Positions 12,826 through 14,388 of a stretch of 64,000 bases of DNA are shown here, piece by piece. The notes below the pieces were generated by a model that did no database searches, was not told the DNA's origin, and saw only the letters and a program-made list of their open reading frames with translations. The number at the start of each line of letters is the position of its first letter. The stretch's first letter is position 1. The translations under genes were made by a program, and so were the position numbers. Source of the DNA: Nocardia spumae (lineage in GTDB: Bacteria > Actinomycetota > Actinomycetes > Mycobacteriales > Mycobacteriaceae); assembly GCF_020733635.1 (NCBI RefSeq), contig NZ_JAJFZL010000001.1, positions 3,596,001 to 3,660,000 on the forward strand. The letters are read 5' to 3'.

Positions 12826-12857
12826 TATAACGCACCGGGGGCCTTGCGGCAAGGCCC
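12826..12857 (+). promoter_or_regulatory. rox promoter with 19-bp palindrome resembling a rifamycin-associated element (RAE)
   Basis: GGGCCTTGCGGCAAGGCCC at 12839-12857 is a perfect palindrome of two 9-bp arms around one base. It begins 7 nt after a -10-like TATAAC (12826-12831), so it overlaps the expected transcription start, 92 bp before rox. A 19-bp inverted repeat of this kind, the RAE, is known upstream of rifamycin-inactivating genes in actinobacteria. No clear -35 is seen. Confidence 0.72.
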
Positions 12858-12948
12858 GGGTGGTGCTGCACAATCATCGAGCCAACCGTCCGACCTGCGA
12901 AGTTCACCTGTTTCGCGGATCGGTCACCACCGGGTCGAATGGGGTTTC

Positions 12949-14388
12949 GTGATTGATGTGATCGTTGTCGGTGGCGGACCCACCGGCATCATGCTGGCCT
13001 GCGAGTTGCGGCTGCACGGTGTGCGCGCGCTCGTGCTGGAGAAGGAGGCCGAACCGACGAAGGTCGTGCGCGCGATGGGTCTGCACGCGCGCAGTATCGA
13101 GGTGATGGATCAGCGCGGTCTGCTGGACCGGTTCCTCGCGCACGGTCGGCGGCATCCGGTGGGCGGCTTCTTCGCCGGAATTCCGGCGCCGCAACCCGAG
13201 GGCTTGGACACCGCGCACGGCTATGTGCTCGGCATTCCGCAGACCGTGAGTGATCGCCTGTTGACCGAGCACGCCGTCGAGATCGGGGTGGAGATCCGCC
13301 GTGGCTGCGAGGTGATCGGCCTGAATCAGGACGCCGATGGGGTGAGCGTCGAACTCGGTGACGGAACACACTTGCGCGCAGGCTATCTCGTCGGCTGCGA
13401 CGGAGGCCGCAGTACGGTGCGCAAACTGGCGGGCATCGCGTTCCCCGGCGAGCCCGCCAGGGTGGAGACGCTGCTCGGCGAGGTGAAGCTGGACGCACCG
13501 CTCGACACGATCGGCGAGGTGATGGCAGAGGTCCGCAAGACACAACGGCGCTTCGGTATCGCACCCCTGGACGACGGGGTGTTCCGGGTGGTGGTGCCGG
13601 CCGCGGAGGTGGTGGCCGACCGTACGGTGCCGACGACGCTGGATGATCTGAAGCGGCAACTGCGGGCGGTCGCCGGCACCGATTTCGGGGCGCACTCACC
13701 GCGTTGGCTCTCACGCTTCGGCGATGCCACCCGGCTGGCCGACAGCTACCGCATCGGGCGAGTGCTCCTGGCCGGGGACGCGGCACATATCCATCCGCCG
13801 ACCGGGGGACAGGGCCTGAACCTGGGTATTCAGGACGCGTTCAATCTCGGCTGGAAACTGGCGGCCGCGGTCGCCGGCTGGGCGCCGGACGGGCTGCTCG
13901 ACAGTTATCAGGCCGAACGCCGCCCGGTGGCCGCCGCGGTGCTGGACAACACGCGCGCGCAGATGGAGCTGATGTCGCTCGAGCCCGGTGCCCAGGCGGT
14001 CCGGCGCTTGGTAGCCGAACTGATGGATTTCGCCGAGGTCAACCGGTTCCTGACCGAGAAGATCACCGCGACCGCGATCCGCTACGACTTCGGCACCGGG
14101 CATGAGCTGCTGGGCCGCCGGCTGCGTGATGTGCCGTTGAAACAGGGACGGCTCTACGAGCGCATGCACCAGGGCCGCGGGCTGCTGCTGGACGGAACCG
14201 GGATGCTGTCGGTCACCGGCTGGACGGATCGAATCGATCACATCGTCGACAGCAGCGAGGAACTGGACGTGCCCGCGGTGCTGCTGCGCCCCGACGGGCA
14301 TGTGGCGTGGGTCGGAGGCGATCAGCAGGATCTGCTCGACGCGCTGCCGAAATGGTTCGGTGCGCCCGCGGGAACGGCGTTCCGGTAG
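12949..14388 (+). CDS. rox: rifampicin monooxygenase
   Basis: 479 residues. It follows, almost segment by segment, the Rox sequence I recall from Nocardia farcinica: GGGPTGIMLACELRLHGVRA (FAD), LHARSIEVMDQRGLL, LVGCDGGRSTVRKLAG, GRVLLAGDAAHIHPPTGGQGLNLGIQDAFNLGWKLAA and the C-terminal LLRPDGHVAWVG. Rox hydroxylates the naphthoquinone core of rifamycins with FAD, NADPH and oxygen and so opens the ansa bridge, giving resistance. GTG 12949 is used because the protein then starts at the FAD motif; the ribosome binding site is weak. The palindrome upstream suggests induction by rifamycins. All FAD-binding residues of class A flavoprotein hydroxylases are intact. Confidence 0.92.
   Translation: MIDVIVVGGGPTGIMLACELRLHGVRALVLEKEAEPTKVVRAMGLHARSIEVMDQRGLLDRFLAHGRRHPVGGFFAGIPAPQPEGLDTAHGYVLGIPQTVSDRLLTEHAVEIGVEIRRGCEVIGLNQDADGVSVELGDGTHLRAGYLVGCDGGRSTVRKLAGIAFPGEPARVETLLGEVKLDAPLDTIGEVMAEVRKTQRRFGIAPLDDGVFRVVVPAAEVVADRTVPTTLDDLKRQLRAVAGTDFGAHSPRWLSRFGDATRLADSYRIGRVLLAGDAAHIHPPTGGQGLNLGIQDAFNLGWKLAAAVAGWAPDGLLDSYQAERRPVAAAVLDNTRAQMELMSLEPGAQAVRRLVAELMDFAEVNRFLTEKITATAIRYDFGTGHELLGRRLRDVPLKQGRLYERMHQGRGLLLDGTGMLSVTGWTDRIDHIVDSSEELDVPAVLLRPDGHVAWVGGDQQDLLDALPKWFGAPAGTAFR

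Follow-up and report, generated by a model that had tools for sequence, protein, structure and literature searches.

A rifamycin-associated element upstream of rox in Nocardia spumae as the possible centre of a conserved divergent two-promoter module

We analysed a 64,000-nt stretch of the Nocardia spumae genome (assembly GCF_020733635.1, contig NZ_JAJFZL010000001.1, positions 3,596,001-3,660,000), hereafter the window, whose coordinates are used below unless another source is named; the whole genome is 7.07 Mb. The subject is a rifampin monooxygenase gene, rox, and the 19-bp palindrome that precedes it, a rifamycin-associated element (RAE) of the kind reportedly described in actinobacteria by Spanogiannopoulos in 2014. 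The rox protein scores 894.9 bits against the rifampin monooxygenase family NF033145, above the curated cut-off of 800, and its best solved chain is 5kow, with 5kox and 6c7s also matching (768 bits; named putative rifampin monooxygenase). It matches Rox/RifMO (NF033145; 5kow, 5kox) over its full length and nothing notable differs, in agreement with an initial annotation of this DNA, which had read the gene as Rox. The sequence on either side of the palindrome is conserved at fixed distances and resembles two promoters that would diverge from it. The features of the locus are as follows, with the site sets behind the counts defined further on.

12815, minus strand: predicted antisense start, 24 nt before the start of the RAE, giving an RNA with 5′ GG (C at -24 and -25 in 123/131 and 117/131 sites).
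12822-12827, minus strand: predicted antisense -10, TAAGTT on that strand, 19 bp from its -35 (key positions conserved in 128, 127 and 126 of 131 sites).
12839-12857, no strand: RAE, a 19-bp perfect palindrome, also containing the -35 of both predicted promoters (from sequence and conservation).
12844-12849, plus strand: predicted -35 of the sense promoter P2, TTGCGG, 19 bp from its -10 (from the sequence and from P2 of Mycobacterium smegmatis helD, PMC10719064).
12847-12852, minus strand: predicted antisense -35, TTGCCG on that strand (deduced from the sequence).
12869-12874, plus strand: predicted P2 -10, CACAAT (126 of 133 upstream-selected sites score 4 or 5 of 5).
12881, plus strand: predicted sense start, 24 nt past the end of the RAE (placed by the published M. 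smegmatis arr start).
12881-12948, plus strand: predicted rox leader, with a possible ribosome site, GGGG, at 12941-12944 (deduced from the sequence).
12949-14388, plus strand: rox, rifampin monooxygenase, GTG start (family profile and solved-chain match).

At 12839-12857 the sequence GGGCCTTGCGGCAAGGCCC forms two perfect 9-bp arms around one central base and can be extended no further. Both this palindrome and the hexamer TATAAC at 12826-12831, 7 nt ahead of it, are as the initial annotation had described them. A perfect palindrome alone was rejected as proof of the element because the window contains 5 perfect 9-1-9 palindromes compared with 0.85 on average over 40 dinucleotide shuffles, so that the arms say little and the conserved surroundings carry the weight. 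The other four lie at 11229, 20626, 32571 and 33778. GGSSCTTGCNGCAAGSSCC itself is rare, with two exact sites in the N. spumae genome, the rox copy here and one upstream of a HelD/HelR gene, with identical flanking elements at identical distances; the initial annotation had proposed a search for the 19-mer near helR, arr or rph genes, and the second site is such a helR copy. The composite pattern had 0 matches in the reversed control of this genome. A third near-match, at genome position 1241393 with 2 mismatches, was rejected as a full module since it is absent among the composite matches. The M. smegmatis arr promoter also contains the core CTTGCGGCAAG, as do sites ahead of helR, arr, rph and rgt genes. 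The 12839-12857 sequence is thus a 19-bp palindrome upstream of a rifamycin-resistance gene, shares its sequence with described RAE loci and is a true RAE, a known kind of element. The earlier claim that an RAE precedes a rifamycin-inactivating gene here is supported, and the frame around it is shared with other rifamycin-resistance loci.

The RAE of actinobacteria is also treated in PMC10719064, PMC8655204 and PMC12802891. Deletion of half the RAE of Mycobacterium abscessus helD led to loss of induction (PMC10719064), and a 2026 paper calls the sensing of rifamycin through the RAE unresolved (PMC12802891). Like the actinobacterial RAE, the element studied here is a palindrome of 19 bp that precedes rox, helR, arr, rph and rgt genes. 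It goes beyond the described element in its longer conserved frame, a mirrored predicted antisense promoter, terminator-like hairpins seen in relatives and an occurrence beyond Actinomycetota. In the open-licence literature searched we found no account of the conserved frame, of the antisense half or of copies in other phyla, which does not show their absence from print.

RAE sites were collected by three routes: near rox genes, near helR genes, and through an unselected scan of genome contigs with the core only. Sites were required to have ≤1 mismatch in CTTGCNGCAAG and ≥7/9 complementary arm positions. The higher-scoring P2 decided their orientation, and sites with the same 99-bp core were collapsed to one before counting. 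The unselected scan yielded at least 119 stretches, and all counts derived from it are counts among the matches listed. Hits fitting neither flank criterion, including many from other phyla, were dropped, leaving 85 flank-qualified sites. The site set for conservation counts is not exclusively actinobacterial. Since a site could enter by either flank, the table of gene classes is partly circular, and the independent-flank counts are the reciprocal ones, taken over 131 sites selected by the downstream flank (P2) and 133 sites selected by the upstream flank alone.

Among the 85 unselected sites, 82 precede Rox, HelR, Arr, Rph or Rgt genes (HelR 33, Rox 28, Arr 7, Rph 7, Rgt 7, none 3), a proportion at which the module could flag rifamycin-resistance genes in genomes. 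These classes are different enzymes behind the same promoter frame. Two of the three leftover sites look like chance matches (L119 and L124), and the third, L177, is misoriented; its genome copy, L304, precedes arr. Within the genus, the RAE lies directly upstream of rox in 29/30 loci fetched, and the exception, L016, is the second gene of a tandem rox pair (L016 and L301) with a single module ahead of the first copy. Over the stretch compared, the module of one locus of this genus (L004) is identical to the Nocardia amamiensis one (L172). We found the composite in 146/201 genomes of the source's own family at ≤3 mismatches, with 0 in the reversed control, and all 30 loci fetched from this family precede HelR (21), Rox (6) or Arr (3). 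No module was found at 16 fetched HelD loci below the family cut-off (L078-L093), of which a looser rescan covered L078 only. Carriage by phage was considered and rejected, the composite pattern being present in 6 viral contigs with no downstream rifamycin-resistance match in any of them. Two plasmid cases match independent annotation. On NZ_CP117713.1 (L246), a 14-kb plasmid from Streptomyces, the module precedes rph, next to which lies a thiazolylpeptide bacteriocin gene; on pCLA1 it precedes a predicted HelR. The plasmid records of Streptomyces clavuligerus (H11-H20) have 3-4 module-like places each, and the one viewed precedes a predicted HelR.

Conservation across the collected sites extends well into both flanks. 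Over the 131 downstream-selected sites, 16/19 RAE positions reach or approach 2 bits, with four variable positions excepted, and the consensus reads CTCCTTGCCACTCTCAACnTATAGCGCACCGG-[RAE]-SGGTCGTGCCGCAGAATCgcCGGCC. On the sense side the hexamer CANAAT, 11 nt past the RAE, scores 5/5 in 109/133 upstream-selected sites and 4/5 in a further 17. In the M. smegmatis arr oligos of PMC7882622 the RAE spans -73 to -55 and CACAAT -43 to -38, counted from the GTG; an RNA-seq start cited in the same paper lies 31 bp upstream of that codon. Combining these positions puts the arr start 24 nt past the RAE end and 7 nt past the last T of CACAAT, a normal distance from -10 to start, and the P2 start of the window copy would therefore be at 12881. 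P2 is supported by one published start, that of M. smegmatis arr. M. smegmatis helD likewise has a promoter 2 whose -35 is located in the RAE (PMC10719064), and homology of the downstream proteins begins mostly within ~100 nt of the RAE, fitting a short leader.

The upstream flank mirrors the sense side. Its top-conserved bases relative to the RAE are A at -17 (128/131), T at -13 (127/131) and A at -12 (126/131), which on the minus strand are T-7, A-11 and T-12 of a TANNNT hexamer placed 19 bp from TTGCNG in the RAE. The predicted RNA start with GG lies at a usual -10 to start interval from this hexamer. A GC-rich hairpin followed by a T-tract begins at the predicted antisense start in 43/132 sites (the upstream-selected set minus the wrongly oriented L177), compared with 0.6 on average across 100 shuffled sets and 0/132 in the sense leader. 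Moving the required start gives 43 terminator-like cases at offsets 0-1, 37 at -2, 30 at -4, 25 at +2 and 1 at +4, so the signal peaks at the predicted start but is not confined to one base. All gene classes contribute (Rox 21/72, HelR 11/40, Arr 2/7, Rph 7/7, Rgt 2/6), with 6/29 within the genus; the helR copy of the N. spumae genome has an imperfect stem only. We read the hairpin as part of an antisense unit because a T-tract so oriented would halt transcripts running leftward out of the RAE or the gene. The minus-strand promoter, and antisense transcription from it in the relatives and in the window copy, is accordingly a prediction from these patterns.

The module was also found outside Actinomycetota. 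Further sites from the unselected scan come from Gemmatimonadaceae metagenome-assembled genomes (MAGs; L128 and L130), Stenotrophomonas maltophilia (L177 and L183), an uncultured Xanthomonadaceae (L204) and a Chloroflexota MAG (L209), with the caution that titles of MAG bins may mislead as to phylum. In Gemmatimonadaceae, the family of L130, the upstream part plus RAE occurs in 27/148 genomes at ≤2 mismatches, compared with 6 genomes in the reversed control. Twenty of the 21 loci examined there (L250-L270, L268 left out) comprise strong matches to Rox (12), Rph (4) and Rgt (1), two weak matches and one without any, and TANNNT stands as the sense -10 in 8/20. Lysobacteraceae, the family of L183, match in 49/198 genomes with 0 in the control. 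The 34 loci fetched, 29 from this family search and 5 others including Chloroflexota (L303-L335 among them), precede Arr (21), Rox (12) or Rph (1). At the Lysobacteraceae arr genes a hairpin and T-tract begin at the predicted antisense start in 20/21 cases, built from 7 stem sequences, versus 0.26 in shuffles. The Chloroflexi-titled contig (L209/L302) has the module before rox, and as a single MAG it may be contaminated. Together these loci suggest that the module with back-to-back promoters is present in more than one bacterial phylum, which narrows the possible sensor.

A second rox in the N. spumae genome (3008610-3010022, 819.7 bits, above the family cut-off) offers a comparison. Its promoter (L216) keeps TTGCGG-18-CACAAT, with the RAE arms disrupted, the antisense -10 pattern gone and ~10 bp less sequence. 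We fetched the regions upstream of 20 low-scoring or second rox genes in the genus and judged them by eye: 3 have the canonical module (L235, L236 and L237), 7 a shortened promoter of this rox2 type (L220, L221, L223, L225, L226, L232 and L239, the core itself being intact in L220 and L232), 5 a more degenerate promoter (L227, L230, L231, L233 and L238), and 5 nothing module-like (L222, L224, L228, L229 and L234). The RAE arms and the antisense unit are thus jointly disrupted in rox2 promoters that retain P2.

The palindrome, the identity of the gene, the fixed spacing, the conservation and the terminator-like hairpins in relatives are observed directly. From them we infer antisense transcription, a factor, the direction of the switch and the whole scheme for the window copy. 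The RAE would be the centre of a conserved divergent two-promoter module with starts 24 nt to either side, holding the -35 of P2 (-10 at 12869-12874, start at ~12881) and, on the minus strand, that of an antisense promoter (-10 at 12822-12827, start at ~12815). In many relatives the antisense transcript would terminate immediately, leaving a U-tailed hairpin ~20-25 nt long. A widely conserved dimeric factor bound to the RAE would keep the weak P2 low; once rifamycin inhibited RNA polymerase, P2 would be released and Rox made. A bound dimer is favoured because both -35s fall within the centre of the RAE, whose conservation exceeds that required of a -35. We give this reading, with the RAE as the shared -35 of two promoters and a dimeric-factor site that represses P2 until rifamycin inhibition, a probability of about 0.47. 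With its predicted starts and short terminated RNA, the module as defined here opens the question of RAE sensing to direct experiment.

The closest competitor, which we rank slightly behind the factor and regard as possible, dispenses with any factor and makes the polymerase itself the sensor. A stronger antisense and a weaker sense promoter would compete for one -35; the antisense unit would fire, terminate fast and keep P2 quiet, until rifamycin-bound polymerase disturbed this cycle and P2 gained. Both flanks resemble sigma70-type -10s at an equal 19-bp spacing, and the spread across several phyla (Actinomycetota, Gemmatimonadaceae, Lysobacteraceae and one Chloroflexota MAG) favours a universal sensor such as RNA polymerase. 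The arrangement would be a second form of the Bacillus subtilis helD/pps rifampicin alarm, in which a strong antisense promoter paired with a weak sense promoter senses the drug (PMC12802891). According to that paper, the B. subtilis antisense promoter has a 19-bp spacer, stands beside the weaker sense promoter and yields a terminated antisense RNA; the corresponding promoters here are predicted from sequence, with a terminator-like hairpin in 43/132 sites and none in the window copy. The B. subtilis promoters converge, however, whereas the predicted ones here diverge from a shared palindrome, and PMC10719064 presents the B. subtilis helD promoter as lacking an RAE. A rifamycin-stalled antisense polymerase would moreover still cover the RAE, so that simple competition would not in itself account for induction, and the outer RAE arms are conserved beyond what a -35 needs. 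We hold more tentatively still the full statement of this alternative: the RAE would be no regulator's operator but the -35 shared by two divergent sigma70-type promoters, with a self-terminating antisense unit and polymerase as the sensor, and one cassette would serve arr, rox and rph genes of Actinomycetota, Gemmatimonadota and Pseudomonadota, and perhaps of Chloroflexota.

Several observations weigh against the module with a bound factor. The module was not found at L034, a rox locus above the cut-off, nor in 6/14 above-cut-off HelD_MYCSM loci (L068, L071, L072, L074, L075 and L077). The terminator test failed at 89/132 sites, the window copy is without hairpin and T-tract at its predicted antisense start, and the same structure occurs in 0/12 Lysobacteraceae rox/rph loci, where the hexamers deviate too. 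M. smegmatis helD has a second sense start, P1, ~20 bp upstream of the RAE (PMC10719064); its equivalent in the window would be ~12819, and no conserved -10 for a P1-type start was found around the collected RAE sites. The putative factor would need to work in several phyla. Finally, rox2 promoters keep the CATATATCG block ~10 bp nearer the -35, and its persistence there may mean that the block has a second or other role.

That last point leads to an unlikely alternative in which the TATA block serves P2 as an A+T-rich upstream contact, or a regulator as a second site, and any antisense RNA is incidental. The block is retained in the rox2 promoters L216, L220, L232 and L239, but this proposal leaves the fixed TANNNT, the conserved GG start and the hairpins starting there unexplained.

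The initial annotation had taken TATAAC as the rox -10, with a start at ~12838, the palindrome lying at the transcription start and the RAE acting on initiation or promoter escape. TATAAC is a fair -10 in this single copy, but T is needed at the last position and C ends the hexamer in 124/131 sites, which makes it a poor sense -10, and the matching -35 position is poorly conserved. The conserved CACAAT and the published arr start at RAE +24 point instead to ~12881, and the P1 equivalent is likewise not 12838, so that the proposed start is probably wrong and the model as a whole very improbable. Initiation may still be the step controlled, through the -35 that the RAE contains and not through its covering the start. 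Least probable of all is that the RAE works as an RNA hairpin within a transcript that begins farther upstream. Complementarity of arm positions 4 and 16 is seen in 43/138 sites, against a mean of 31 in shuffles (0.24% of which reach that number), and is lacking in 95/138; relatedness of the sequences inflates the excess.

The two neighbours of rox are both on the minus strand. Divergent from it, at 11440-12708, is a gene with a phage-integrase domain (PF00589, 50.1 bits); converging on it, at 14479-15552, is a sigma-factor gene with Sigma70 regions 2 and 4.
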